A program made the position numbers and the translations under genes. The notes under the pieces are model-generated. The model made no database searches, had not been told where the DNA came from, and saw only the letters and a list, made by a program, of their open reading frames with translations. Shown piece after piece: positions 21,999 to 40,181 of a stretch of 64,000 nt of DNA; positions within the stretch are counted from its first letter, which is position 1, and each line of letters starts with the position of its first letter. Source of the DNA: Chitinophagales bacterium (GTDB taxonomy: Bacteria; Bacteroidota; Bacteroidia; Chitinophagales; CAIOSU01); NCBI GenBank assembly GCA_040877935.1, contig JBBDNB010000057.1, positions 1 through 64,000 on the forward strand, in the 5' to 3' direction.

Positions 21999-22067
21999 TA
22001 AATAAATATGTTATTTTTAAATATCTAAAACTCACCAAACTATTATCTCATAAACTAAAAAATCCAG

Positions 22068-22178
22068 CTTCAATTCTATTTTTTCTGAAAGTAGCTTGGG
22101 AAGCAGGGAGCAGACCTGTATTGACATGGTGAGCCAAATAAGTTTCAATTCTATTTTTTCTGAAAGTGGCATTGGAAG
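22068..22178 (-). CRISPR. Two degenerate outlying CRISPR repeats (trailer end)
   Basis: Repeat copies at 22068-22103 (T to C in the first base) and 22143-22178 (GGCATTGGAAG instead of GGCTTGGGAAG at the end) flank one 38-39 nt spacer. They are split from the main array by 240 bp without repeats. Decayed repeats at the leader-distal end fit an old trailer. Confidence 0.85.
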
Positions 22179-22418
22179 CTGATGTGCTGATGATTTGATT
22201 TGCAGATCAATTTTTTTTGTCCTAAATCCGGTTTGTCATGCTATCACTATGGTAGTATATTGTGATGAATCTAAATTTTAGACATGGTTAAATCCATGCG
22301 GTGATGGTATGACTTGACTTGTAGCAAAGGATTTACCAATAGTAAAATGGATAATAGCCCAGGAATTGATTTCCAAATGCAACTCCCAATTAAACGATAT
22401 TATTCTTGGCCATTTACA
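22179..22418. other. Insertion-like stretch between orphan repeats and main array
   Basis: About 240 bp with no CRISPR repeat and no open frame. It can fold: GTCATGCTATCAC (22235-22247) pairs with GTGATGGTATGAC (22301-22313) with two G-T wobbles, and inside lie short hairpins (TCTAAA/TTTAGA, CATGG/CCATG). It might be a small non-autonomous element or the relic of lost repeats. Confidence 0.4.
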
Positions 22419-23557
22419 ATTCAATTCTATTTTTTCTGAAAGTAGCTTGGGAAGATTCCTGCTTAGTATAGCTCTAATCTACTTCGGTTAGTTTCAATTC
22501 TATTTTTTCTGAAAGTAGCTTGGGAAGACCATTAGCGGCAATACCAGCCAATAACCACCCAGGTTTCAATTCTATTTTTTCTGAAAGTAGCTTGGGAAGT
22601 ATCCAGGCGTTTCATCAAAAAATCAGAATGCCCCAGTTTCAATTCTATTTTTTCTGAAAGTGGCTTGGGAAGTAAAAACGACTCAGACTAATATGTACAT
22701 TGATGAAAGTTTCAATTCTATTTTTTCTGAAAGTAGCTTGGGAAGATAGAAGCCGTGCATAGTCGGGTAATGGAACACCAATATTTCAATTCTATTTTTT
22801 CTGAAAGTAGCTTGGGAAGCTGTGCGCCTCTACTGTGGAGCTGTGGCCAATATCGGATTTCAATTCTATTTTTTCTGAAAGTAGCTTGGGAAGTCAAGGT
22901 TATAACCCGTGCATTTTTTATTACGGGTGTATTTCAATTCTATTTTTTCTGAAAGTGGCTTGGGAAGTTAGTAATTGAATCAATCTGAAAATCCCTTGGT
23001 GCAAATTTCAATTCTATTTTTTCTGAAAGTGGCTTGGGAAGTATTCAATGGTATCAGGTGAAGATAACACCAATGAAAATTTCAATTCTATTTTTTCTGA
23101 AAGTGGCTTGGGAAGAACCGGCCTACCCTCAATTCGTGCCTGCTGCCTTAATTATTTCAATTCTATTTTTTCTGAAAGTGGCTTGGGAAGAAAGCTCTTC
23201 CTTCAGGCGTTTTTCCAGTGCCTGGATTTCAATTCTATTTTTTCTGAAAGTGGCTTGGGAAGCTTGGCTTTTCTTTACTGGTTTCATACTGTAAAAATTA
23301 TTTCAATTCTATTTTTTCTGAAAGTGGCTTGGGAAGATTCTCCATTTTTCATATCCAATATATTCCCCTTTGATTTCAATTCTATTTTTTCTGAAAGTGG
23401 CTTGGGAAGTTCTTTTGTAAGGTTTTATTTCTTTGGTCTCCTTAACATTTCAATTCTATTTTTTCTGAAAGTGGCTTGGGAAGATTTCACTTTGACCGGT
23501 GGCAATTCGCCTCTGTTCAAATTTCAATTCTATTTTTTCTGAAAGTGGCTTGGGAAG
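22418..23557 (-). CRISPR. Type I-B CRISPR array, 16 repeats and 15 spacers
   Basis: Sixteen repeats starting about every 73-75 bp; the 36-bp cores start at 22419, 22492, 22564, 22637, 22710, 22784, 22858, 22932, 23006, 23080, 23155, 23227, 23301, 23374, 23448 and 23522. With the near-constant base before each core the unit is 37 bp, ending CTTGGGAAG on the plus strand, with spacers of 35-38 bp. On the minus strand the repeat ends in ATTGAAAC or ATTGAAAT, the usual 5' handle of type I-B crRNA, so transcription is from the cas4 side. Internal base 26 is A or G and the leading base is G in the distal copies and A from 22784 on. Confidence 0.97.
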
Positions 23558-23751
23558 CCGATGCTTTGCCCAAACCTATGTAAATCTTGATTTTGCTTAG
23601 TTTTTCCAATTTTTATTTCCCTGTTTTTCATCATGTCAAAGAACGTTTTTTGCTTTGTTTTTAAAATTTTCCGTATTGGATATGCTTTTCAATAAAGGCT
23701 TTCAGCTCCATTTTTATAGTTTTTAAAATAATTTTGAACCCGGAAAACAGC
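23558..23751 (-). promoter_or_regulatory. CRISPR leader with promoter
   Basis: AT-rich 194 bp between the array and cas4. On the minus strand TTTGAC (23635-23640) is followed after about 20 bp by ATAAAAATTG (23607-23616), close to the Bacteroidota -33/-7 pair, with a start point expected near 23600 and reading into the first repeat. A 16-codon open frame (MELKAFIEKHIQYGKF, 23661-23711, minus) lies upstream of this promoter; whether it is translated is unknown. Confidence 0.6.
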
Positions 23752-24327
23752 TTATTGAATGCAGATATTCCTATAAGTGCAATTTAAGCATCTGCGCTTG
23801 AATTTTGTAGCTTTTGGATAATAATTTTGCCCAATTATTTTAAGCATGGCATCCATACTTTTCCTGATTTCCGCTTTGCTTTCCTCGGGGATGGGCACTT
23901 CCACAATTTTGTTGGATGAGCGGGTATAAACCAAAAAGCCCCTGTTGACCTTTTCCCCGAAATTTTCCTCTATCAGCAGGGCGTAGCAGTACAATTGTTG
24001 TTGGTAGGTTTCGTAAACCCGATCTTTCCATTCGGCAAATTTGTAATCCAATGGAGCGAATGTACCGTCTTCCAACTCAAGTACCTCGTCTATTTTTCCG
24101 CGCAGACCGGGCATGCCCAGATACTGATCCAGCCACTTTTCCTTTACTCCGATTTTTTTGCGCAGGTAATTTTTATTGCGCTCCAGTTTTTCATTGTGCA
24201 TCTGCCGGCCCCGCTGTACTTTGTAGAATTTTTCCTCAAATTGCGGTATGCGCAGTACATATTCAAAATAGGTATAGCGCGGGCAGTAGAGATATTCTAT
24301 AATCTGTGAGGGATAAAAACTATGCAT
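23752..24327 (-). CDS. cas4: CRISPR-associated exonuclease Cas4
   Basis: 191 aa RecB-like nuclease that trims prespacers and helps select PAM-bearing fragments for Cas1-Cas2. The four cysteines of the 4Fe-4S cluster are Cys15 (YCPRYTYFE) and Cys180, Cys183 and Cys189 (CLNCTYRNIC). The nuclease core shows GKIDEV (Asp80), APLDYKFAE (Asp94, Lys96) and QQQLYCYALL. It overlaps cas2 by one base (TGATG), so translation is coupled. It is the cas gene nearest to the leader. Confidence 0.96.
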   Translation of the reverse strand: MHSFYPSQIIEYLYCPRYTYFEYVLRIPQFEEKFYKVQRGRQMHNEKLERNKNYLRKKIGVKEKWLDQYLGMPGLRGKIDEVLELEDGTFAPLDYKFAEWKDRVYETYQQQLYCYALLIEENFGEKVNRGFLVYTRSSNKIVEVPIPEESKAEIRKSMDAMLKIIGQNYYPKATKFKRRCLNCTYRNICIQ

Positions 24328-24617
24328 CAGAACAGGAGGGCTTTTACTTCATCGCTTACCAATTTTTCGTCAAAGGCCTGTCCCAGCATGGCACAGCTTT
24401 TCAGTTGGTCTTTGTTCATGTTGAAAATATAGACCTTATCTTTTTCCTCATTAATGAGTTCTTCGATTTCCAGTTGCAGGCTGTCCCTTTCGTTGGCATT
24501 GAGCGTGCCGAGAAAACAGGAATACTGTACCCTGTAGAGCCCCGCCTGTTTGCAGATTTTGGCCACTTTTGTCCGTGCCCTGTCTTCTTCAATGTCGTAT
24601 AGCACCCAAATGATCAT
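24327..24617 (-). CDS. cas2: CRISPR-associated endoribonuclease-fold protein Cas2
   Basis: 96 aa ferredoxin-fold protein that bridges two Cas1 dimers in the spacer-integration complex. It begins MIIWVLYDIEEDRARTK, with the conserved Asp8 after the first strand, and has YRVQYSCFLGTLN in the place of the family's R-x-Q-x-S-V-F motif. Length is normal. Unusually, cas1 does not directly precede it: a four-helix-bundle gene lies between. Confidence 0.95.
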   Translation of the reverse strand: MIIWVLYDIEEDRARTKVAKICKQAGLYRVQYSCFLGTLNANERDSLQLEIEELINEEKDKVYIFNMNKDQLKSCAMLGQAFDEKLVSDEVKALLF

Positions 24618-24686
24618 GGTTTGTTATGTTTTGAATGGTAGAATGATAGAAGGTTGGAATGAGTGAATGTTGTTGGGTACATTTTT

Positions 24687-25076
24687 TCAGGTTTTGTTTT
24701 GATTGAATTTTTGGCGCATTGTTTTATTTGCTTTTGCTATAATAGATAAAACTTCATTGTATTTTAAATGGAGCAATCTTGTTTCATTTATAAGTTTTGG
24801 GCAGATTTCCATCAAGATTTCGAGCCAAAAAAGGGTTTCATCCGCTTCTTCTTCTATTTTCATTTTCGAGTACATTGCTTTTTCAGAAATTGCCCTGAAT
24901 GCTGCCCTGTAATTTGCCCCTACGGAGGTTGCGCTTTTCACAATTTGATAATTGATTACCTGAAGTTCTTTTCGGTTTTCAAATTTTTGAGTGTAGCGAA
25001 TCAGTTCTATCGCCAATGATTTTGTGCGTTTCTTCATGTTTTCTACAAACTCTATTTTTGATTTCCTCTCGTACAT
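24687..25076 (-). CDS. Four-helix-bundle protein (S23-like) inserted between cas1 and cas2
   Basis: 129 aa, all helical. It matches the four-helix-bundle (23S rRNA intervening-sequence 'S23') family: KSLAIELIRYTQKFE, the highly characteristic QIVKSATSVGANYRAA, KMKIEEEADETLFWLEIL and a last helix NEVLSIIAKANKTMRQK. Length fits the family (115-130 aa). Members form pentamers in structures but have no settled function. They are scattered in Bacteroidota chromosomes, so this may be a chance arrival rather than a cas gene; the flanking AT-rich, CATTC-rich low-complexity DNA supports insertion. It has the same direction as the cas genes. Confidence 0.88.
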   Translation of the reverse strand: MYERKSKIEFVENMKKRTKSLAIELIRYTQKFENRKELQVINYQIVKSATSVGANYRAAFRAISEKAMYSKMKIEEEADETLFWLEILMEICPKLINETRLLHLKYNEVLSIIAKANKTMRQKFNQNKT

Positions 25077-25130
25077 ATCTATAAGTTTTAATTATTTCGG
25101 CATTCAAACATTCCTTCATTCCAACCTTCG

Positions 25131-25172
25131 GCCATTCCCTCACTCAGCCATTCCCTCACTCAGCCATTCCCT
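25131..25172. repeat. 16-bp tandem repeat over the cas1 stop codon
   Basis: GCCATTCCCTCACTCA is repeated from 25131 with 2.6 copies (starts 25131, 25147, 25163). The cas1 stop (25156-25158) and last codons (EGMAE) lie in it. Slippage here would vary the Cas1 tail. Confidence 0.85.
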
Positions 25173-26178
25173 CATCCACTTTCTCCTTCTCAATCAACTC
25201 ATTCGCAAATTTATGCGCTTCCATTTGCAGGGCGTTCATCCGTGTTTGGTTGCGGCCAGAGTAGCGAATTTTTTCACTGTCCAGATAATCCAAGTAGGGC
25301 GTTACAAAAAATGCTTTCCCTTCTTCATTGAGCGAAACACCTCCCTGCCATTCGCCAAAGAATTTTTTGTTGATTTTCTTTCCCGTAAAAAGCCTGAATA
25401 CGAAGCGTTCTGCATAGATTCTGTAGGGTTCGATAAAATCAAAAACCAAGCTTTTGGTATTGTAGTCGTCCCTGTGCATAAAGCCCACATAGGGATCGAG
25501 CCCGGCAAGCATCAGTGATCGTTCAATCCGGCTATAAAGAATGCCATAGGCATAATTGAGCATGGCATTGAATGGGTTTTTTGCGGGGCGGTAGCTTCTG
25601 CCGCTAAAGGCAAACTCATCGGGCATACAAAGTGAAAGTGCGGAAAAATATTGGCGGCCTGCCGATCCTTCCCAACCCCGCAATGATTCGGCAATTTCTG
25701 CAACGGTAGCCGCTTCGCATTCCTTTATTTTTTTGCTGAAATCAACAATAGCTCCCGATTTTTCATCCAGTTGAGCATGCAGTTGGCTGCGGTGTTTTTT
25801 CAGGTCTTGCAAAAAATCGCTCTGGTTTTCCAATTTTTTCAAGAGCCAATTTTTTACCCATTTCAGGCCATCGCTGTTGAGGGAAACTTCTAGTTGTCTT
25901 TTGCGGATTTTTACCGTGCTGCCCAATTTACTGTGCCAAAATCTACCCATGGGGTGGCCATTGTTTTCCACTACAACAATATCGATATTGTTTTTCAGGG
26001 CCAGGGCAATGGCATCGGTGCTCAGGGCGGAGCCTTTGGACATAACAATGGAACTGACCTTGTGCGCGGCCACATGTTCGATCTTTGCAGCGTCTTTCTT
26101 TTCCTCCCTTACTTTTATTTTAAACATGTCGTCTTTTACATGTAAATAAGTGCCGTAGGTATTGATGAATATTTGCAT
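25156..26178 (-). CDS. cas1: CRISPR-associated integrase Cas1 (type I-B)
   Basis: 340 aa metal-dependent integrase that inserts spacers next to the leader. The N-terminal beta domain is followed by the helical catalytic domain with Glu170 (SLRGWEGSAGRQYF), His235 (VGFMHRDDYNTKSLVFDF) and Asp247/Glu250 (FDFIEPYR), the metal ligands of the family. Length is normal. The last residues fall in a 16-bp tandem repeat. The 213 bp between cas6 and cas1 is the largest gap in the cas run, so an internal promoter is possible. Confidence 0.96.
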   Translation of the reverse strand: MQIFINTYGTYLHVKDDMFKIKVREEKKDAAKIEHVAAHKVSSIVMSKGSALSTDAIALALKNNIDIVVVENNGHPMGRFWHSKLGSTVKIRKRQLEVSLNSDGLKWVKNWLLKKLENQSDFLQDLKKHRSQLHAQLDEKSGAIVDFSKKIKECEAATVAEIAESLRGWEGSAGRQYFSALSLCMPDEFAFSGRSYRPAKNPFNAMLNYAYGILYSRIERSLMLAGLDPYVGFMHRDDYNTKSLVFDFIEPYRIYAERFVFRLFTGKKINKKFFGEWQGGVSLNEEGKAFFVTPYLDYLDSEKIRYSGRNQTRMNALQMEAHKFANELIEKEKVDEGMAE

Positions 26179-26392
26179 AATTGTTTATGAATAAATTTAT
26201 AGTTGAATTCTAAAGACCTGTATTAAAGTTATAAAAATAATATTTTATAGAAATAAGGGGGGCAGAATAGTCAGTTGCAGAAAAATATGTGTATTGGAAA
26301 TCTGATCAAAAAAGCCAGATGGTTTTTCTGTCTGAAAAACAAGAAAGGTTTTCAATTTCTTTCTTGGAATACAAGAAGATTTATCGCCAGAA

Positions 26393-27067
26393 TCAACTGA
26401 GCTTTCGAATGCTGCCGAATCCCCTGGACACTGAACGCCCGATGCCTATTCCATTGGGAAGAAGGGCATTGAGCACAAATTTTCCGCTAAAGGCCTTCAT
26501 GGTATTGTCCTTGAATTTGGTGGATTTTTCCTGAACCTCTACTTTGGCCATCAATCGTTCATCGGCCTTTAGCTGTAAATCAATATTGGTGAAAAAGCTC
26601 AATACCTGGCCTATGAGGATACTGTTGAGCATGGCCGTTTTTTCATTGGGGTCTTTCATTTGAATGTACGCCTGGTGATTTTTCTGGTTGAGTGCCATCC
26701 AAAGCGTGTCGAACTGGTATTCGTGCAGTTGATTGCTGTAGCCTGTTTCCACTACATGATGCTCAATATTTTTTGAATGAATGGGGTAGCTTTGTCCATC
26801 GAGCTGTAGTTGTTTTGTTTTTAGAAATAGTTGGGGCAGTAATTCAGCACCTTCATTAATGCCGACCAAAACGGGGATGCCGCTGAGGACTTTGTACTGC
26901 ACGACAGGATATTTGTACCTGAATTGTCCATCTGCATAGTGGTTGTGCAAAACGGGTGAATGTTCTTTGAACAGATTTCCAAAATAGCCACGCAATTTGT
27001 GTGCATCGCGAGTTTTAAGTTTGATTTCCGGAAAGCTGATTTTGGTAATGCTGATTGATTTGTTCAT
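26393..27067 (-). CDS. cas6: CRISPR RNA-processing endonuclease Cas6
   Basis: About 224 aa from MNKSISITKISF. Open reading extends 18 codons upstream to 27121, but those codons come partly from a palindromic repeat, so the start at 27067 is preferred; 27097 (MNEIEQK) is another option. The C-terminus has the glycine-rich RNA-binding loop GIGIGRSVSRGFGSIRK, the strongest Cas6 mark. The N-terminal RAMP-like fold is consistent. Cas6 cuts the pre-crRNA in each repeat to give the ATTGAAA(C/T) handle. It lies downstream of the transposase gene, not with cas8b as in many I-B loci. Confidence 0.88.
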   Translation of the reverse strand: MNKSISITKISFPEIKLKTRDAHKLRGYFGNLFKEHSPVLHNHYADGQFRYKYPVVQYKVLSGIPVLVGINEGAELLPQLFLKTKQLQLDGQSYPIHSKNIEHHVVETGYSNQLHEYQFDTLWMALNQKNHQAYIQMKDPNEKTAMLNSILIGQVLSFFTNIDLQLKADERLMAKVEVQEKSTKFKDNTMKAFSGKFVLNALLPNGIGIGRSVSRGFGSIRKLS

Positions 27068-27091
27068 GGGTAGGATTTTTTGTTCAATTTC

Positions 27092-27130
27092 ATTCATACT
27101 ATGGCTCAAAGTCATAGTCATAGTATGAAT
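27092..27130. repeat. REP-like palindrome 1, 3' side of the RAYT gene
   Basis: Arms ATTCATACTATG (27092-27103) and CATAGTATGAAT (27119-27130), 12 bp, perfect, with a 15-nt loop containing a second TCATAG copy. It starts 16 bp past the transposase stop and shares the ACTATG/CATAGT core with the two other palindromes. Confidence 0.9.
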
Positions 27131-27145
27131 CGGGAACGGTCTGTT

Positions 27146-27790
27146 TTAAACTATTTTCACATCATAAGACTGTTTGATAAACTCTTTAGGGTTATCGGGT
27201 ATGTATAAGTATTTACTTGCGATAGATTTATTACAGAGTTTCCCATTTCTAATTCCTGCATAATCCCTGAAAGAACTCATTTCCCAGTCTTCCATCTTTT
27301 TTACAAGACCTGCTTTTAAGGGATTTTGATGAATGTAGTGAAAACAGGTGAATGGGTATTGGTTGATGTTGTCAAGGTCCAAAGTGGTGGCACGACTCTG
27401 AGGTGTACTGATCTTACGGTTTCCAGTGATACTATGACTCCTAGTCATAGTATCACTGGAAACGTTACCGCCCGGAAATTCCAGGGGCTTTATTTTGCTG
27501 TGTTGTTGAAACAAGGAGCCAATCCTGTCTTCCTGTTTGTTAATGGCTCTTGCATATGATCTTAACATCACTCTCAGGTCATTACTGAATTTTTCCCCAG
27601 CTATATTTGATTTTGAATAACAAAGCCAATGAAAGTGATTGGGCATCAAGCACCAGGCAATCAGGTGCATATGCGGTAGGATATGGATACGCAGCTTTTC
27701 GAGGAAATAAAGATAGTTTTCACGGCTGAAGAAAATCTTTTGCCGATTGTTGCCCCGGTTGTAGATGTGAAAAAATTGATTGGGCTGCAT
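27146..27790 (-). CDS. REP-associated tyrosine transposase (RAYT, IS200/IS605-like Y1 HUH)
   Basis: 214 aa. The HUH motif is HFH at 52-54 in AWCLMPNHFHWLCYS; the catalytic tyrosine is likely Tyr152 in TCFHYIHQNPLKAGLV; FHIYNRGNNRQKIF at the N-terminus is typical. This is the TnpA-REP branch, which acts on palindromic REP sites. Residues 110-124 (VSSDTMTRSHSITGN) are encoded exactly by an internal 45-bp palindrome related to those on both flanks, so the variable region between the HUH and Tyr motifs is enlarged in frame. It lies between cas3 and cas6, on their strand. Activity is likely intact, as all motifs remain. Confidence 0.9.
   Translation of the reverse strand: MQPNQFFHIYNRGNNRQKIFFSRENYLYFLEKLRIHILPHMHLIAWCLMPNHFHWLCYSKSNIAGEKFSNDLRVMLRSYARAINKQEDRIGSLFQQHSKIKPLEFPGGNVSSDTMTRSHSITGNRKISTPQSRATTLDLDNINQYPFTCFHYIHQNPLKAGLVKKMEDWEMSSFRDYAGIRNGKLCNKSIASKYLYIPDNPKEFIKQSYDVKIV
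27419..27463. repeat. REP-like palindrome 2, inside the RAYT coding region
   Basis: Perfect 21-bp arms at 27419-27439 and 27443-27463 around a 3-nt centre CCT. The core is ACTATGACT/AGTCATAGT, shared with palindromes 1 and 3. It keeps the transposase frame open (15 codons). Confidence 0.95.
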
Positions 27791-27819
27791 GGTTTTGTTT
27801 TAGAGGTCATTCTTACTAT

Positions 27820-27860
27820 AGCCACTCATACTATGACTCTGAGTCATAGTATGAGTGGCT
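27820..27860. repeat. REP-like palindrome 3, between cas3 and the RAYT gene
   Basis: Perfect 20-bp arms at 27820-27839 and 27841-27860 around one base. The core ACTATGACTC/GAGTCATAGT matches palindrome 2. It ends 5 bp before the cas3 stop and begins 30 bp before the transposase start. Weaker outer pairing (CATTCT at 27808, AGAATG at 27868) extends into cas3. Confidence 0.95.
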
Positions 27861-27865
27861 AATGC

Positions 27866-30280
27866 TTAGAATGAGATGGTTTGGTTTTGCTCAAGTTTAC
27901 TTCTTTTGAATCCAGTGTTTTCTTCATAATAATAATTCAATTCTTCTGGTCGAATCCAATAAATATTTTCAGAAAGTGCGAGTTCTTTTATTAATTCTTT
28001 GGCTGTATCCAGATAATTGGGCACTGCAATAATCCGTTGATTAAAAGCTCTTTTATACTTTTGATCGAATTCGCTTTTCTTCATGTGGCCTTCAAGAAGA
28101 TTTTGGTAAGCCTCACGAGCTTCACTTCCTTCACGATCGTTTTCCATTTCCACAAAAACTGAAATTCCGTTTTGACTTTCTTCAATGATTTTGAAATCTG
28201 AAACCGTAGTATGTTTTTTAGGAGAGCTTGCTGGAAAAGCATATTTCAAGTTTGACATAGCGTCAAAAACTTCTCTTGAAACTCTAAAGTCACTCATTTT
28301 CTGATCAGCGATGTCATCAAAATATCTTTCCACCATTTGTTTGTAATTCCCTTCAGGAATCTCAATTGCAGCTAATGCTTTTCTGGATTTAGAGTCAGTG
28401 GCATAGCCGTATATCTTTTGACAATCCCCAAAATCTACAATGTAGAGAGGCGAACCTTTTCGCTCATTTGAGTTTTCACGGTTTATGCGACCAGCTACCT
28501 GAACAATTGAGTCGATTGGACCTAAGTCCCGAAATCCCATGTCAAAATCCAGATCAACGCCTGCTTCTACAACTTGAGTTGAAATTAAAATACAGGTTTT
28601 GTTAGGCAACTTTTCTTTAATCTCTTTGATGCGCTGTTGGCGCTGAACGGGAGTGATATTGGTTGATAGGTAAAAAAGTTCTACTTCCGTATTTTCCTCG
28701 AAATGTGCCGATAACAAATTGAAAATATCAATCGAACGATTGACTTTATTTACAACTATTAAACAGCTTTTGCTGGTTTGCCAATGATCTTCGAATACAG
28801 GAATAAAATCCTCGCTTTCAATCTTCTCTCCGATTAGAGGAACGATTCGGGTACGGTTGAAGCAGGCGAAGACTTCTTCATCTCTATCAAGCAAGTTCAG
28901 TGGCTTCAATTTTTCTTCTTCAATTTCAACTTTAAGTTCACGTGTCATCAACTCAAATAGTTTAGGTTGAGTAGCAGTCATGATAATAACCCGCGCATTG
29001 AGATATTTACAGATATAATAGAGGGCAGCACCGATTACAGGTAGTTTCTCAATAGCCAGGGTTTGCACTTCATCTAAAATGATTATGGAATCAGCAAAGT
29101 GTCTAAACTTTTTCAGCAGTTTGTTTCTGTTGCCAATTAAGGTTTCAAAAAGCTGAACAAAAGAGGTGATTACTACATCTTTTTGCCATGTGTCCCAAGC
29201 CATTTTCTTTTGGTTATAGCTTACCTCCTCATCATCAAGTTCATTTTTGGGGCGTTCATCCTTTCCAAAAATATCGGCATATTGATAATGACCCATTACA
29301 ACATCTTTGCCAATAGTTTCTTCATATTCGGACAGTGCTTGTTCAATAATATTGATAAAAGGAAGTCCATAAATAATCTGTGGCAGGAAATCTTGCTCTT
29401 GTTTGATTTTATGTCGCAGTTTTAGCACAAAATCAAGAGCAGTCATTGTTTTACCTATTCCGGTTGGTGCTGCCAATGTGAAAATCTTTCTGTCGAGAAT
29501 ATCCTTTCGGTCAATATTCTTTATTACTTCTGAACGGACATAATTTCTCAATTGGTTTTGAGTCAGAATAGTTAACTCTTCTTTTGGATAATCAGGTTTA
29601 CCAAACCTATTATCAACAGAATCTTTGGGAAGAATTGAAAACTTGGTGGTATCTGTATCTGAAGCATCCAGTTTATCAGCTTCAATCAGTAGCGAAAACA
29701 GGTAGTTGGTTTTGAAGTATCTTGCGATACTGGGCTCATTTTTGAGTTTTTTTCTAAATAGATTATACAGGGATTTTGGTTTGTTGCTACTAATCAGATC
29801 ATCGGCAAAATCAAAATGTGACTTTAATTCATCCAATGAAGAAAGAGCAATTTTTTGTTTTTCAAAATTCACTTCTTCCAGCATACTGTACTGTTTATTA
29901 TCAGGATATAGAACCAAATCCAGATTCATCAAATTGCTATGATGCATTTTGATGAGGTAAAAGGCAAGCAGGGCCTTTTCAGGCTCTTCTTCGAAGTATC
30001 TGAAAGCAGTTTGAGCACCGATATTTGAATGTGCTTTTAGGTGTTGGTCAGCTTTTGATGGTTCAAGTAAATAAGTTTGGAAATAGCTGGTAAATTTTCC
30101 CAAGTCATGCAGCCAACAAACTGCATCAAGTAGCTTTTCTGTTTCTAAACTTCCAAATAAAGTATTGTTTGATAAATGAAAGACAGCTTTATCCCGAACC
30201 CCTTGCAAGTGATCAATTAAAAGCTTACTCCCCTCTCTTTGAGTTTTGCTAATCTGTTTGCTGTGTGAATACACCGGCAT
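27866..30280 (-). CDS. cas3: CRISPR-associated helicase-nuclease Cas3
   Basis: 804 aa. An N-terminal HD nuclease domain (HD at 58-59 in CWLHDLGKFTSYF, further His84) precedes an SF2 helicase: Walker A APTGIGKTMTA (274-278), DEVQ at 403-406, motif III TAT at 435-437 and GRINREN at 597-603. Cas3 is recruited by Cascade to unwind and degrade target DNA. All motifs are intact, so the enzyme should be active. Its start lies 32 bp inside the 3' end of cas5, suggesting coupling. The stop at 27866 is 5 bp from a large palindrome of the RAYT unit. Confidence 0.96.
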   Translation of the reverse strand: MPVYSHSKQISKTQREGSKLLIDHLQGVRDKAVFHLSNNTLFGSLETEKLLDAVCWLHDLGKFTSYFQTYLLEPSKADQHLKAHSNIGAQTAFRYFEEEPEKALLAFYLIKMHHSNLMNLDLVLYPDNKQYSMLEEVNFEKQKIALSSLDELKSHFDFADDLISSNKPKSLYNLFRKKLKNEPSIARYFKTNYLFSLLIEADKLDASDTDTTKFSILPKDSVDNRFGKPDYPKEELTILTQNQLRNYVRSEVIKNIDRKDILDRKIFTLAAPTGIGKTMTALDFVLKLRHKIKQEQDFLPQIIYGLPFINIIEQALSEYEETIGKDVVMGHYQYADIFGKDERPKNELDDEEVSYNQKKMAWDTWQKDVVITSFVQLFETLIGNRNKLLKKFRHFADSIIILDEVQTLAIEKLPVIGAALYYICKYLNARVIIMTATQPKLFELMTRELKVEIEEEKLKPLNLLDRDEEVFACFNRTRIVPLIGEKIESEDFIPVFEDHWQTSKSCLIVVNKVNRSIDIFNLLSAHFEENTEVELFYLSTNITPVQRQQRIKEIKEKLPNKTCILISTQVVEAGVDLDFDMGFRDLGPIDSIVQVAGRINRENSNERKGSPLYIVDFGDCQKIYGYATDSKSRKALAAIEIPEGNYKQMVERYFDDIADQKMSDFRVSREVFDAMSNLKYAFPASSPKKHTTVSDFKIIEESQNGISVFVEMENDREGSEAREAYQNLLEGHMKKSEFDQKYKRAFNQRIIAVPNYLDTAKELIKELALSENIYWIRPEELNYYYEENTGFKRSKLEQNQTISF

Positions 30281-31067
30281 AGGTCAAAAATTGAAAGTTT
30301 TCAGTTTCTTCTGAATTGCCATTTCGCTTTAGCTGAAAATATTTGCCAAAAAGCTTAACATGAATTGGAAAATTTCTTGTGGCGAACAAAACCCGATTCA
30401 TACGATAAACCTCTCTACCTTTTTTACCACCGATAAAATCTGCTGGAAGCAGTTCTTCTTCAATATGGTTGAATTTAAACTCGGGATTATCTGGAAAATC
30501 AATTTCTTCTACTTGCTCACTATTCCCAGCCGAGTGTAAATTAATCCATTCTCCATTGCAGTTTTTCTCAAACGCAGTAAACTCTTGAACATTCGAAACA
30601 AATGCTGTGAAGCCTGCAATTCCTAAACTAAGATTGAATTGTCGATTGTTATCCTTTAATTTCTGTGAAATCTGGTCGAAAATCTCTCTATTTTTACCTG
30701 GAGCTAAATAAATACGGTACCTGACAGAATCTTTTTTCAGGTCGCTTCCTGTTACCACTTCAAATGGAGTTTGCACGCGCCCCTTTCCGCCTCGAAAATC
30801 ATTGTTGCCTTTGATCATCAATAAATTTAGCCGATGAAATGATTTTTTCAGATCACTTAGTACCCGTAATCCAATCTGCAAATTTTGTGTCTGATAGTTT
30901 TCATAATAGGAGTCTTTTTCTTCTCCCATAATGGCAGCCAACATTCCTGCAATAGTCGTGCGTGGTGGAATGGAATAACTCATGGCCGTATTGTTTCCAT
31001 GAAACTTGCGAAAGTGGGCAAACTTTCCTTCTATGTCGAATGAAAGAATTTCCATTGAATTAAGCAT
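30249..31067 (-). CDS. cas5b: Cascade subunit Cas5 (type I-B)
   Basis: 272 aa RAMP protein that caps the 5' handle of crRNA in Cascade. The N-terminus has LSFDIEGKFAHFRKFHGNNTAMSYSIPP split by the family pattern F-x-x-x-x-x-x-S-Y-x-[IV]-P-P-R-T-T-I-x-G-M-L-A-A-I, which is diagnostic for Cas5. The length suits the I-B (Cas5h) type. The overlap with cas7 is 8 bp if the first Met is used; Met5 (31055) would remove it. Confidence 0.92.
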   Translation of the reverse strand: MLNSMEILSFDIEGKFAHFRKFHGNNTAMSYSIPPRTTIAGMLAAIMGEEKDSYYENYQTQNLQIGLRVLSDLKKSFHRLNLLMIKGNNDFRGGKGRVQTPFEVVTGSDLKKDSVRYRIYLAPGKNREIFDQISQKLKDNNRQFNLSLGIAGFTAFVSNVQEFTAFEKNCNGEWINLHSAGNSEQVEEIDFPDNPEFKFNHIEEELLPADFIGGKKGREVYRMNRVLFATRNFPIHVKLFGKYFQLKRNGNSEETENFQFLTYAGVFTQQTD

Positions 31068-32055
31068 TTATTGATACGCCTTCAGCGGTTTTTACTTTCA
31101 CATCTTTGATTACCTTTCCTTTGTTATCGGCAATCAACTTTTCCAGACGGCTAAAATCAACCTCTAAGTCATTATACTTGCGTACTTTTTTGAAATCGCC
31201 AGCAACTTCAGAGGGTTTTACATCCACAAAATCTCGCAGGTCTCCAAAGTGGCCGTTGTGGTAACCATCATTGTAGATGATTTCCAAATAGAGTTTAGGG
31301 TATTGATTTAATTTAGAGCGGGTAGGAAGTGAAGGTATAGCATTCCAAATCCCATCACGGAAATGTTCCATGTCCTCATCGGTTAGTCCCGTAGTTTTTG
31401 CGGCAAATTTATTGGCCACTCCATGGAATGCGAGTAAGCTGTAGTGAATTCGGTAATCTTTTCCAAAGGTGCTGCTATCATCATTCATGATGGTAACGAT
31501 GGAATCAGAATCAACAGGATAGACTTTATTAAGTGAATAGCCCCAATTAAGTTGTAGTGGGCCAGTATAGGCTCTGGTAAAACCACCAACAGCGAAAGCA
31601 CTTCCAAACAAGCGAATGTCCAGATAAGTCTCTTTTACAATCTTATCTAGAATGAAAGCATTGAGCTTTTTGTTTTTTGCTTTTTGCAGTTCTTTAAATA
31701 CGCTATCAGCATCTTTTGCTTTCTCCATTACTTTGTCAAAGGCACCTCTCATTTCTGGTTCTCCACCGAAATACTCATCTACTAATTTCGAATCGCTGAG
31801 TAATCGATTCACTACAATTTCAAGCTTTTGGTCAGGATTGACTTTTGTTCCTTCTTCCATTGAAACAAAAACATCATAATCCTTTTGCATAAAATAATCA
31901 CGGATATAGCGTTTCAGACGAGTATCTGTTACCAGGTTGGTTTGCGTATCATAATCCATACGTGGCTTGTTCTCCTGGTCAGGATCTCCATTGGGATTGC
32001 AGTTAATGGCTTCATAAAGGAAAAGAAAATCGGAGTTGTTTTGTATTGTATTCAT
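31060..32055 (-). CDS. cas7: Cascade backbone subunit Cas7 (Csh2, type I-B)
   Basis: 331 aa from MNTIQNNSDFLFLYEA; 25 upstream in-frame codons overlap cas8b and are not used by the family. Csh2 signatures: EAINCNPNGDPDQENKPRMD, TDTRLKRYIRDYF, FGSAFAVGG and RAYTGPLQLNWGYS. Several copies form the filament on crRNA. Gene order cas8b-cas7-cas5-cas3 is the standard I-B arrangement. Confidence 0.95.
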   Translation of the reverse strand: MNTIQNNSDFLFLYEAINCNPNGDPDQENKPRMDYDTQTNLVTDTRLKRYIRDYFMQKDYDVFVSMEEGTKVNPDQKLEIVVNRLLSDSKLVDEYFGGEPEMRGAFDKVMEKAKDADSVFKELQKAKNKKLNAFILDKIVKETYLDIRLFGSAFAVGGFTRAYTGPLQLNWGYSLNKVYPVDSDSIVTIMNDDSSTFGKDYRIHYSLLAFHGVANKFAAKTTGLTDEDMEHFRDGIWNAIPSLPTRSKLNQYPKLYLEIIYNDGYHNGHFGDLRDFVDVKPSEVAGDFKKVRKYNDLEVDFSRLEKLIADNKGKVIKDVKVKTAEGVSINA

Positions 32056-32071
32056 AGTTTGATGGTTTTTA

Positions 32072-33901
32072 TTAATTATTGTCAGATTTAGTAAGTCCAA
32101 AGGAATAGCCGGCCATGAGGTAGAAAACATTTTGTTCCTTACTTAGTGGCCAGTTTTTTTCATTGAAGCGATCAGTAAATTCACTGAAATTCCATTCTGT
32201 TTTATCGTGAATGTTGTATTGCCTTGTTTTTTCGCGTAGGTCTAGACTAAGCCGAACTATTGCATCAGCGTCCATGCCGTTAAAATTGATTTTATTCAAT
32301 ACCGGCTTGGACTCATGGCCTTTTTTGTATTGGGCATAAGCAACAGACGACAGAATTCTTCCAAGATAAAAAAGAGCTTTTTCAGCTTCTGAGTATTCCA
32401 TCTTATCAAAAAAGGTCTGTATTCTTTGTTGATAATCTGATGCGGAAGTTTCTTGTCCCTCAGTTTGAGAAGATATTTCTTTTTCCATTTCTAAAAGATT
32501 TAATTGTTTTAAAGTGAAAATCAATGCTGAGTATTTGAAAACAGCATCTTTGATCGCAAAATCAAAAGAATTATTTTGTCTGATATTCTTAAAAGCCGAA
32601 TAACGACCGTACCAATGACAGAGGCTTAGTTCAATGAAATGTTTAAAAAGGTTTTCAGGTTGAACTGCTTTTTGTTCCAATATATCTTTGAAGAGATTTA
32701 ATGCTAGATTTACTTTTGACTTATTGCCATCACGAACTGGAATAATGTTAAAAACAGACTGTAAATTAAAAGGAAACTTTCCGCCAATATAGTCTTTAAA
32801 ATCATTTCCAGATCGATTAAATACCTCGGTAAGTTTGGTAAGATAAATACTGTTCACATCCTTGATATGGTTTATAATCTTGAACGAATTCCCATCAGAT
32901 TCGAAAGCAATATAGTTGATCCAGAAAAGACCAACTTTGGGTAAGCTTCGGTCAATGTCAGCTTCAAGTGATTGATATCCAAAAAGCAAATCGGAAGATT
33001 TATCCAGATATAGTTCGGTTTCATCAAGATTAAATGCTACAAGATCTTTGTTCATGTAGTTTGGGATGATGATATGAGATATCCCTGCAATTCTGGCTTG
33101 AAGATTTTTCAGGACATATTGTGCTCCTTTATCCAAATAGCCTGTAGATTTATTTTCAATTTGAAAATTTTTTTGGAATTCGCTAAAATTTGAAGCAAAA
33201 TTGAAAGTAGATGTTTGAAAAATAGCATTTGGATTGTAGCCTCTCTGAAATGCTGCTTCTATAACATCATTAGAATAATTTCCAGATAGTTGATCTAAAC
33301 CACTATTCCCTTTTGTTGATCCAAATTTTTCAATGATAAAATCATCAAATCCATCAATAGCATTCAATTTAGTTGGCTTTGAGTCATTAATTGCTTTAGA
33401 CTGAATTAAAGAATAAAAGAGAACTACTTCATCGTTTTTTCCAAAATTTAATTCCATCTTAAATTCTGTAAAGTCCAAAATTTTTCTAGATTCATTTAAT
33501 TCTAAATTTATCTCCTTTAATGCTTTGTAAATTGTTTTAGAAGTATAATTTGGTAAATCCTCAATTGACCGTATCATGCTTCCGTCTTCGCCAACTTTTT
33601 TTCCAAATAAAGTTTCCTCTAACATTGAAAAATTTTTAGGCTCAACTGTCAAAGCACATTTTTTTCCACGTCTACCCCATTTTTCAGGATTAATATATCG
33701 GTGTTCAATGGCACTATTATCTGGATTAAAAAGCTCCATTTCATCTTTTAAAAAGCGAATTTCCTTGTTAACACAATCAAAAAGAATCGGACAAACCCAA
33801 TTTTTCTTATCAGGGTTATACTTAGGTTCAGTTGTTAGCCTCGCCCAAACTCCCTTGCCTTCAAGAAGTTGTTCGCCTATTTTTGAGAGTGTCTGTAGCA
33901 T
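32072..33901 (-). CDS. cas8b: Cascade large subunit Cas8b (Csh1/TM1802-like)
   Basis: 609 aa, first gene of the cas operon. The N-terminal LSKIGEQLLEGKGVWARLTTEP block and the general length and charge resemble the TM1802/Csh1 large subunits of type I-B, which read the PAM and recruit Cas3. The family is fast-evolving, so the assignment leans on position directly upstream of cas7-cas5-cas3. A well-formed promoter lies just ahead of it. No zinc-finger cysteine cluster is evident, unlike some Cas8b proteins. Confidence 0.88.
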   Translation of the reverse strand: MLQTLSKIGEQLLEGKGVWARLTTEPKYNPDKKNWVCPILFDCVNKEIRFLKDEMELFNPDNSAIEHRYINPEKWGRRGKKCALTVEPKNFSMLEETLFGKKVGEDGSMIRSIEDLPNYTSKTIYKALKEINLELNESRKILDFTEFKMELNFGKNDEVVLFYSLIQSKAINDSKPTKLNAIDGFDDFIIEKFGSTKGNSGLDQLSGNYSNDVIEAAFQRGYNPNAIFQTSTFNFASNFSEFQKNFQIENKSTGYLDKGAQYVLKNLQARIAGISHIIIPNYMNKDLVAFNLDETELYLDKSSDLLFGYQSLEADIDRSLPKVGLFWINYIAFESDGNSFKIINHIKDVNSIYLTKLTEVFNRSGNDFKDYIGGKFPFNLQSVFNIIPVRDGNKSKVNLALNLFKDILEQKAVQPENLFKHFIELSLCHWYGRYSAFKNIRQNNSFDFAIKDAVFKYSALIFTLKQLNLLEMEKEISSQTEGQETSASDYQQRIQTFFDKMEYSEAEKALFYLGRILSSVAYAQYKKGHESKPVLNKINFNGMDADAIVRLSLDLREKTRQYNIHDKTEWNFSEFTDRFNEKNWPLSKEQNVFYLMAGYSFGLTKSDNN

Positions 33902-33920
33902 CTTTTAAAAATTAATTCTC

Positions 33921-33950
33921 CAAATTTAACTAATATTTCTTCACACCAAA
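33921..33950 (-). promoter_or_regulatory. Promoter of the cas operon
   Basis: On the minus strand TTTG (33947-33950) and TAAATTTG (33921-33928) are 18 bp apart, a close fit to the Bacteroidota -33/-7 pair. The start point would be near 33914, giving a ~13-nt leader before the cas8b ATG at 33901. Confidence 0.65.
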
Positions 33951-33967
33951 ATATTTATAATTGTATT

Positions 33968-34369
33968 TCATATCCCTGCATATACCTCTACAAACACGGC
34001 ATTGTACTGTCCATCGGCAGGATCGAAATCCAATTTTTTGACTGCCGCCTGCATGGAAATGCCTTAGTCCATCAGGTTGGCCATTACCTTGTTTTCGGCA
34101 CGGGGCAGATAGCCCAGTTTGTATTTACCAAAAAACACTTCTATGGCATATTTGTCATAAGGATTGTCAGGCTCGCGCTTTAGCTTTAGCATATTGCCGC
34201 TGCTCAGATAATTTGCTACTTTTTCAAAATCATAATAATAGAGTCCGCGCAGATAGTTGTGGTAGATTTTACTGCCGTCAGGTTTTCCTGCTTTCGCAAG
34301 CTGAATGCCCACCATAGCTACTCCTGCTCCTCCTGTTAATAGCTGTTTGAGAAAGTTCTTGCGGGTCAT
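33968..34369 (-). pseudogene. HIRAN-domain protein gene with in-frame stop
   Basis: The frame from ATG 34369 gives 101 aa and stops with TAA at 34064-34066. The same frame then stays open for 31 codons (GISMQAAVKKLDFDPADGQY, NAVFVEVYAGI) to a TGA at 33968. With the stop read as glutamine (CAA), the ~133-aa product has the normal length and end of the family. Visible HIRAN parts: LRGLYYYDFEKVANYLSSGN, LKLKREPDNPYDKYAIEVFF and KLGYLPRAENKVMANLMD. The N-terminus (TRKNFLKQLLTGGAGVAMVG) resembles a Tat signal with RK, so it is probably exported although HIRAN is known as a DNA-end binding domain. It follows the WYL regulator. Confidence 0.75.
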
Positions 34370-34388
34370 GCTTTAAATTCATTTAACA

Positions 34389-34422
34389 CAAACCTAAAAG
34401 CCGTTTTCGACAACTAGTGTCG
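34389..34422 (-). promoter_or_regulatory. Promoter and candidate WYL operator upstream of the HIRAN gene
   Basis: The inverted repeat CGACA-ACTAG-TGTCG (34408-34422) sits ~12 bp upstream of a minus-strand TAGGTTTG -7 box (34389-34396). A related GCAACTAA appears at 34423-34430 and again upstream of the WYL gene near 35369. Placement over the -33 region fits control by the adjacent regulator. Confidence 0.45.
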
Positions 34423-34425
34423 CAA

Positions 34426-35319
34426 CTAAATTTTTTTTACTTTTTCCCTGATATAAACTTTCAGTGATTCAGGTTCAAGCACTTCTATTTCATCTATCAG
34501 TCCCATTACAAAGCGGCCAATTCCTTTGTTGGAATATACCTTGGTTTCAAAAATGCGCTTCCCCTTTTTTTCTACTATTAAATGGCTGCTTTCTGGATAT
34601 TCCTCACTTAACAATTTGGCAGCTCTCTTGCTCAGCCCTAGTTTTACTTTAAAATCCTCATTGCCCGACATGCCAAAGATATCTGTTGACTGTATTTGGT
34701 GGAGGTGTTCATGTTTCCATTTTTTTGGCAAAATCTCGGCTGTAGGAAAGCGGTCGCATTTGTATTGTTTGATTCTTTTAGTACTGACCTCAAAAGCCAT
34801 TAAATAGCGGTAATATTGAATAAAGCGAATGGGTTCTACCAATCGGTCTTTTTCTGTATGGCTATTGGCAGAACTGTAATTTTTCAAAATCACCTGCTGT
34901 TTGTTTTTTATAGCAGCCCTGATTTCACTAATGTTTTTGCTGCTTTGCAGTGCTTGAAGTTCTGTTCCTATTTCTTCTATATCCGTAAGGGCATAGAGTT
35001 TTTCAAGCAAACTTTTTCTAAGAATATGATTTCCGCTACTGTGGTCTAACAGGCTGTTGCGCACCAGTGCAGCTTCTTCCAGGCTAAAAACAATAGAATT
35101 TTCATACTCCAGGTTTTTATTTGAAAGATTTTCAATCCTGAAACGGTTTTTATTTTGGGCAATATCAAAACCGATGGACTGTAGCAGTTCAAAATAGCGT
35201 TCGATGGTTCTTGTGCTTACGCCTAAATCATTTGCAAGAGCTGTTTTGCTGCTACCAAGTGGTGCCCTTAATCGGGCAATGAGGTTGAAGATTCTGAATA
35301 TTTTTTGCTGTGCAGACAA
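34426..35319 (-). CDS. WYL-domain transcriptional regulator
   Basis: 297 aa. An N-terminal winged helix-turn-helix (SSKTALANDLGVSTRTIERYFELLQ, residues about 23-47) is followed by a WYL domain (AAIKNKQQVILKNYSSANS ... LVEPIRFIQYYRYLMAFEVS) and a C-terminal extension (LSKRAAKLLSEEYPES; GRFVMGLIDEIEVLEPE). WYL regulators bind nucleic-acid-like ligands and are often found next to CRISPR or other defence genes; this one lies 1.4 kb upstream of cas8b. The start is TTG at 35317-35319: there is no ATG in frame before an upstream TGA and none within the DNA-binding domain. Confidence 0.87.
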   Translation of the reverse strand: MSAQQKIFRIFNLIARLRAPLGSSKTALANDLGVSTRTIERYFELLQSIGFDIAQNKNRFRIENLSNKNLEYENSIVFSLEEAALVRNSLLDHSSGNHILRKSLLEKLYALTDIEEIGTELQALQSSKNISEIRAAIKNKQQVILKNYSSANSHTEKDRLVEPIRFIQYYRYLMAFEVSTKRIKQYKCDRFPTAEILPKKWKHEHLHQIQSTDIFGMSGNEDFKVKLGLSKRAAKLLSEEYPESSHLIVEKKGKRIFETKVYSNKGIGRFVMGLIDEIEVLEPESLKVYIREKVKKI

Positions 35320-35445
35320 TTGCGATTTTATAAAATGATTGAAATGGTAAACATATCATTTTTTCGCAACTAATTCTAAATGGCAGAAGTCATCATGTTT
35401 TTACCTATCACTAAATTATAAGCATTTTTATTTATTAGCTCAAAC

Positions 35446-35478
35446 AAAAAAGCCTCTTGCACATTGTACAAGAGGCTT
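35446..35478 (-). terminator. Terminator after tRNA-Glu
   Basis: On the minus strand AAGCCTCTTG and CAAGAGGCTT form a perfect 10-bp stem around a 9-nt loop and are followed by TTTTTTG, just past the tRNA 3' end. Confidence 0.85.
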
Positions 35479-35485
35479 TCAGTTG

Positions 35486-35557
35486 CAGTCCGTAGGGGAA
35501 TCGAACCCCTGTTACCAGGATGAAAACCTGGCGTCCTAACCCCTAGACGAACGGACC
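35486..35557 (-). tRNA. tRNA-Glu (anticodon TTC)
   Basis: 72 nt. Acceptor GGTCCGT pairs with ACGGACT (one G-T pair), D arm GTCTAGGGGTTAGGAC, anticodon stem CCAGG/CCTGG with loop TTTTCAT (anticodon TTC), T arm AGGGG-TTCGATT-CCCCT, discriminator G. No CCA is encoded. Confidence 0.97.
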
Positions 35558-40153: not shown

Positions 40154-40181
40154 GTAGGGGCGCACGGCCGTGCGCCCCTAC
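40154..40181. repeat. Perfect 28-bp GC-rich palindrome
   Basis: A 14-bp half-site GTAGGGGCGCACGG followed by its exact complement, no spacer, between the GNAT gene and a convergent gene. It matches a palindrome family seen between genes in many phyla (from memory). No T-run adjoins it, so it is a poor terminator. Confidence 0.85.

Follow-up and report, generated by a model that had tools for sequence, protein, structure and literature searches.

Why would a transposase gene carry, within its own reading frame, a copy of the palindrome that also flanks it? This question is raised by a RAYT (TnpA_REP-like Y1 HUH transposase) gene on the reverse strand at positions 27146 to 27790 of the window, i.e. 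the whole stretch of 64,000 nucleotides that was analysed. The gene encodes 214 amino acids and was assigned by its open reading frame, the NCBIfam model NF047646 (REP-associated tyrosine transposase) and a fold match. The NF047646 hit (E=6.6e-15, 55.3 bits) lies under the cut-off of 80, and a Pfam search of the protein gave no match. The protein may therefore be either a divergent member or a sister group of the curated NF047646 family. Its HUH motif (NHFH, residues 51-54; 27629-27640, reverse strand) and its tyrosine motif (YIHQNP, residues 152-157; 27320-27337, reverse strand) are, bar single positions, invariant in 50 aligned relatives, and Y152, I153, N156 and P157 as well as S172 S173, the SS extension, are invariant throughout. 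Among PDB entries, the AlphaFold model (mean pLDDT 87) is closest in fold to the complex of TnpA_REP with a REP hairpin (4er8, E=1.8e-7), followed by the TnpA proteins of IS608 and ISDra2. Taken together, the locus displays the traits of a TnpA_REP: HUH and a tyrosine in a YxxxNP context, the fold, and flanking palindromes with a further copy elsewhere in the genome. The high number of near-identical copies typical of IS200/IS605-like elements is absent, as there is one copy and the other RAYT matches in the genome are at most 60% identical.

The palindrome within the RAYT gene

The internal palindrome spans positions 27419 to 27463 (reverse strand). Its two arms of 21 nt (27419-27439 and 27443-27463) are 100% complementary and enclose a loop of 3 nt. 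It starts in codon phase 0 and encodes residues 110-124, VSSDTMTRSHSITGN, in the interval between the HUH and tyrosine motifs, exactly as the preliminary description had reported. A unit of 33 nt, AGTGATACTATGACT-nnn-AGTCATAGTATCACT, is contained within it. The reading frame stays open through the palindrome, with a length that is a multiple of three, and the catalytic motifs are preserved, in agreement with the earlier view that the insert fits the frame and leaves the gene intact. The longest arm in 200 codon-shuffled versions of the RAYT gene was 10 nt compared to 21 nt in the real one, and 3e-7 palindromes with 21-nt arms are expected per 64 kb. The region is predicted to fold, as ssDNA or RNA, with a z of about -7 relative to shuffled sequences; an Rfam scan of positions 22000-35500 detected no RNA family at the gathering threshold.

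Two further palindromes flank the gene. The upstream one (27819-27861), located after the stop of cas3 and before the start of the RAYT gene, has 21-nt arms and a 1-nt loop. The downstream one (27092-27130) is degenerate, with 15-nt arms that are 93% complementary and a 9-nt loop; it overlaps the 5' end of the cas6 ORF, where it codes for MTMTLSHSM. The core ATACTATGACTnnnAGTCATAGTAT is found without mismatches at 27429, within the gene, and at 27828, in the upstream flank, and with three mismatches at 27096. Hence the preliminary description, which had placed the same core on both flanks, was right for the upstream copy, whereas the downstream one is not a good copy. None of 100 dinucleotide shuffles of the window contained the core. 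At up to three mismatches it occurs at four places in the 4.03-Mb genome, three of them at the RAYT locus of the window and the fourth at C3:3420. Just four genomic copies give no hint that the element is spreading actively in this genome. The internal and the intact flanking copy differ at 4 of 30 arm positions, plus the outer arm bases.

We also looked for a foot sequence. TCTTAC stands in front of two of the three copies in the window and was rejected as a general foot, since it is not general among the copies compared. The GT[AG]G foot was found at 0 of 88 upstream flanks, 1 of 51 internal copies and 1 of 69 downstream flanks, which is at or below chance, and no other conserved tetranucleotide foot was found at the palindromes. 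Palindromes of other kinds are present as well. A perfect palindrome of the canonical GTAG double-foot type, GTAGGGGCGCACGGCCGTGCGCCCCTAC, lies at 40154-40181 and is unrelated to the ATGACT family, and a further RAYT of the genome (L016, G000:C43) has pairs of two other palindromes, GTTCGTAGCAAGGGTGCTACGAAC and ATCCGTAGCGCCTCGCTACGGAT, on either side.

The internal palindrome is part of a longer segment of the protein, residues about 105-142 (27365-27478, reverse strand), delimited by a gap in a paralogue, by alignments and by pLDDT values. The closest full-length paralogue of the same genome (60% identity) aligns to residues 3-104 and then directly to 143-211, with only about 10 nt between its two matching stretches. 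The segment is missing or unrelated in alignments that covered 80 relatives taken from named genomes as well as 55 of the same order. Because both the nearest relatives and the paralogue lack this stretch, we regard it as an insertion, much as had been proposed for residues ~101-142; no relative has the same residues without the palindrome, and the peptides encoded at internal sites are not conserved. In the structural model, the segment is placed between the strand 99-103, after the FQQH motif, and the helix 144-159 with the catalytic tyrosine. Residues 114-137 are predicted to be disordered (pLDDT below 50) and the core is modelled with confidence. Of the ~38 extra residues, only 15 are encoded by the palindrome itself.

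Internal palindromes in related RAYT genes

We determined the best palindrome of 15-3-15 architecture in the HUH-Tyr interval of 81 RAYTs, with at least 12 of 15 pairs as the threshold. Such a palindrome was found in 48 of the 81 genes; the others showed a background of 8-11 pairs, resulting in a bimodal distribution. A control part of the same 81 genes gave 11 of 15 pairs at most. Almost all internal units (45 of 48) are codon-aligned, and half-decayed copies are few. Under strict detection in 137 RAYTs, 42 had a copy in the loop after HUH compared to three with one nearer the Tyr helix, namely those of the window, of L063 and of L108, the last with a tandem pair. The general unit of 33 nt can be written as A..ACT-nnn-AGT..T; its middle varies, and pair 9 is the preferred position of a mismatch. 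Stop triplets occur in the loops of 24 of 157 flanking copies versus 1 of 51 internal ones, and that one is out of phase (p=0.011). The presence of an internal palindrome is clade-structured, with 16 changes on a tree, many branches of which are poorly supported, compared to 43 in shuffles. These sequence comparisons show that RAYTs repeatedly carry an internal copy of their own hairpin, and that the feature is genuine.

The RAYT of the window groups with RAYTs mostly devoid of an internal palindrome. Its five nearest rows on the tree (L018, L019, L064, L038, L029) have none, and the loop that follows HUH in the window RAYT itself is short. The window copy therefore looks like a separate, independent and recent gain at the rarer site. 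The perfect 21-nt arms likewise suggest that it is young.

The internal copies resemble the palindromes around their own gene. In the 41 loci with both, internal and own flanking copies agree at 26.4 of 30 arm positions, versus 18.2 of 30 for the flanks of other loci; the best of 10000 permutations reached 20.8 of 30. Compared to the internal copy of the nearest relative, the own flank was closer in 40 of 48 loci, further in seven and tied in one, and between the internal copies of relatives that share 50-80% protein identity, only 15-19 of 30 positions are the same. Pairing in 40 internal units, which were picked for being palindromic, amounts to 96% despite many two-sided changes, and covariation in such units, again picked as palindromes, is 0.740 compared to 0.182 in shuffled ones. 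As far as can be read from the sequences, internal and flanking copies are subject to concerted evolution. The internal site thus persists, and the sequence that occupies it changes together with the flanks, a pattern compatible with recurrent replacement or conversion, whether or not selection takes part.

RAYT genes in cas operons

The RAYT gene of the window is located between two cas genes of the same orientation. Directly upstream lies cas3 (27866-30280, reverse strand; TIGR01587, E=3.6e-41) and directly downstream cas6b (26393-27121, reverse strand; Pfam Cas6b_C, E=1.6e-35, with Cas6b_N from residue 22). Three loci (L246, L247, L249) represent the empty site, where cas3 is followed directly by cas6 and neither RAYT nor palindrome is present. 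In L248, a type I-B-like system, a different RAYT (804-1454) is found directly upstream of cas6; the ORF before it was taken as the cas3 end, judged by eye. This RAYT gene contains two in-frame copies of a REP of the canonical GTAG double-foot type, GTAGCATCGTTGCAGTGCAACGATGCCAC, and a third copy is located at the cas6 start.

A second context is the type II-C-like operon. A cas9 gene lies upstream of the RAYT, in the same orientation, in 23 of 79 relatives (L024, L031, L034, L035, L037, L040, L046, L048, L052, L053, L056, L063, L065, L066, L067, L070, L071, L072, L073, L078, L082, L087, L095), 22 of which have an internal palindrome, and cas1 follows downstream in all 23 but L082, where no cas1 was seen. 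The cas9-adjacent RAYTs are scattered on the tree (16 changes), possibly as a result of repeated entry. Approached from the other side, a RAYT directly precedes 13 of 70 II-C-like cas1 genes of the class (L175-L244), and an in-frame internal palindrome is present in 12 of these 13 RAYTs; the palindromes are mostly of the AACTTTTCCAAAGTT or AAACCTTCAAGGTTT type, another sequence family. The second RAYT of the window's own genome (L015:788-1480) is also located between cas9 and cas1. It has an in-frame palindrome at 1102-1134 with a copy 3' of the gene, and the cas1 gene downstream harbors another 33-nt palindrome in frame (L015:1922-1954). Location in a cas operon and presence of an internal palindrome are associated (Fisher p=1.1e-5), but just three independent pairs lie on supported branches, too few to separate the association from shared descent. 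Among open-access papers, we found no report of a link between RAYTs and cas genes.

These observations point to a repeated association of RAYTs with CRISPR operons, which may reflect either a function or a shared landing site. A far-reaching interpretation would be that the in-frame recognition hairpin of the RAYTs in cas operons serves as a standing site of self-control or self-marking, and that the gene is no transient visitor but a regular accessory of CRISPR-Cas loci in Bacteroidota, between cas9 and cas1 in type II-C and between cas3 and cas6 in type I-B. We regard this as improbable and mention it as speculation.

Two side observations concern the cas genes themselves. Some 3' flanking palindromes would, if translated, form the first residues of the cas ORF that follows: MTMTLSHSM ahead of Cas6b (27092-27130), MTQSHGVT ahead of Cas1 (L065:3611-3643) and VASLQCNDAT ahead of Cas6 (L248:1426-1475). 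Therefore, Cas proteins may have REP-coded N-terminal extensions, or the start is misannotated. In addition, an ORF on the plus strand (23048-23542) that encodes the repeating peptide NSIFSESGLG adjoins cas4/cas1, and is most likely a CRISPR array read as protein.

Origin of the internal palindrome and comparison with known systems

We consider it probable that the palindrome is the RAYT's own REP-like element, which entered the gene in frame and is tolerated there since the encoded peptide forms a disordered loop at the surface. The idea of an own element inserted in frame, which had been put forward in the preliminary description, is supported by the match to the own flank, the absence of the segment in relatives and the recurrence in dozens of genes. 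Arguments against it are the extra residues beyond the palindrome, the low copy number in the genome, the lack of a GT[AG]G foot and the differences between the internal and the intact flanking copy of the window. The element could have been copied or inserted through the single-strand cut-and-join chemistry of the RAYT; alternatively, the nearby flanking hairpins could have given rise to it through template switching. The survivors would be those insertions that keep the frame, introduce no stop and hit a permissive loop. Repeated replacement or conversion would then prevent inner and flanking copies from diverging, even as the sequence of the palindrome drifts from lineage to lineage. In the window, the event would have affected the loop between the strand after FQQH and the Tyr helix, separate from the commoner insertion after HUH. 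More tentatively, the internal hairpin, as ssDNA or mRNA, may be bound by the enzyme and thereby limit its own expression.

It is quite conceivable, without being the expected case, that the internal copies are of no use at all. Palindromes would land anywhere near a RAYT, the tolerated ones would remain, and quasi-palindrome correction would preserve their arms. The density of palindromes per 10 kb is indeed almost the same in RAYT genes (8.1) and in intergenic regions near RAYTs (8.3), the insertion sites are hypervariable loops, and the cas1 gene of the same genome has an unrelated palindrome in frame. However, neighbouring ORFs at the same loci have a density of only 0.35, i.e. 23-fold less than RAYT genes (shuffles: 0), and the presence of internal copies is stable over deep branches, both of which may in part be accounted for by loop tolerance.

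Rather unlikely, in our view, is a selected control element, in which the hairpin, in mRNA or exposed ssDNA, would be bound by the RAYT or a different factor and dampen synthesis of the RAYT, its presence being conserved and its sequence tracking the specificity of the enzyme. This would agree with the clade-structured presence in the face of sequence turnover together with the flanks, with the scarcity of half-decayed copies, and with the two-sided changes that maintain palindromy, in units chosen as palindromic. But replacement or conversion among nearby copies yields the same pattern without selection, and many related RAYTs have no internal palindrome. Moreover, where the common mismatch at pair 9 occurs, the sense strand has C.A in 11 internal copies versus T.G in four, a preference that an mRNA hairpin would not favour; this wobble orientation is suggestive against selection on an mRNA hairpin, and not significant. 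A chance palindrome, or one that merely follows from a conserved peptide, is ruled out for practical purposes by the shuffles of window and codons, by the minute expectation, and by internal-site peptides that vary while palindromy persists.

The preferred reading, an own element in frame, has a precedent. In-frame REPs within tnpA_REP genes, in the HuH-Tyr interval, were described by Quentin, Siguier, Chandler and Fichant (2018, BMC Genomics 19:475; PMC6006769), whose main text calls them unique to subclass 2.4 and places them between beta3 and alphaC, with a 5' GT[AG]G foot. As in this subclass as described there, the RAYT of the window has its own REP between HuH and Tyr, in a peripheral variable region and with the frame unbroken. 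In contrast to subclass 2.4, which is defined by YIxNNP and the absence of an SS extension, it has YIHQNP and S172 S173, its palindrome has no GT[AG]G foot, and the site is just before the Tyr helix. The window RAYT rather resembles subclass 2.6, which is described from Bacteroidetes with YIH[QN]NP, an SS extension and atypical hairpins, in its motifs, in hairpins without a GT[AG]G foot and in relatives that are mostly Bacteroidota; in place of the WQ motif of 2.6 it has F94-Q95. Neither co-variation of internal and flanking copies nor a cas link is mentioned in the main text of that study. E. coli TnpA_REP (4ER8) shares with the window RAYT the fold, the HUH and Tyr motifs, flanking palindromes and a low copy number, while the latter differs by F94-Q95 in place of W94-Q95, by palindromes of 33 nt with an ATGACT core and by the insertion of 38 residues before the Tyr helix.

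Intragenic palindromes are also known from other systems. Rickettsia palindromic elements and GTAG/CGTC REPs within genes (Di Nocera 2013; PMC3733652) are likewise in frame and tolerated in loops, but they are found in many unrelated genes, whereas those described here cluster within the RAYT gene and correspond to the palindromes on its flanks. Since in-frame REPs have been reported for subclass 2.4 (2018) and intragenic REPs elsewhere (2013), the kind of arrangement is already known; new are the different palindrome without GT[AG]G foot and the different site. Own, presumed target hairpins in frame are common among Bacteroidota RAYTs, beyond subclass 2.4, with inner and outer copies that co-evolve, and they provide a matched series of enzymes and hairpins for studying RAYT specificity where the GT[AG]G guide fails. 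Finally, Fremin and Kyrpides (2022; PMC9067536) reported palindromic structured-RNA candidates, with no source assigned, that overlap cas genes, including cas6 in type I-B systems of Bacteroidetes. Palindromes described here also overlap cas genes, a likeness by description. It suggests that RAYT elements in cas operons would be one source for such unexplained palindromes in cas genes.
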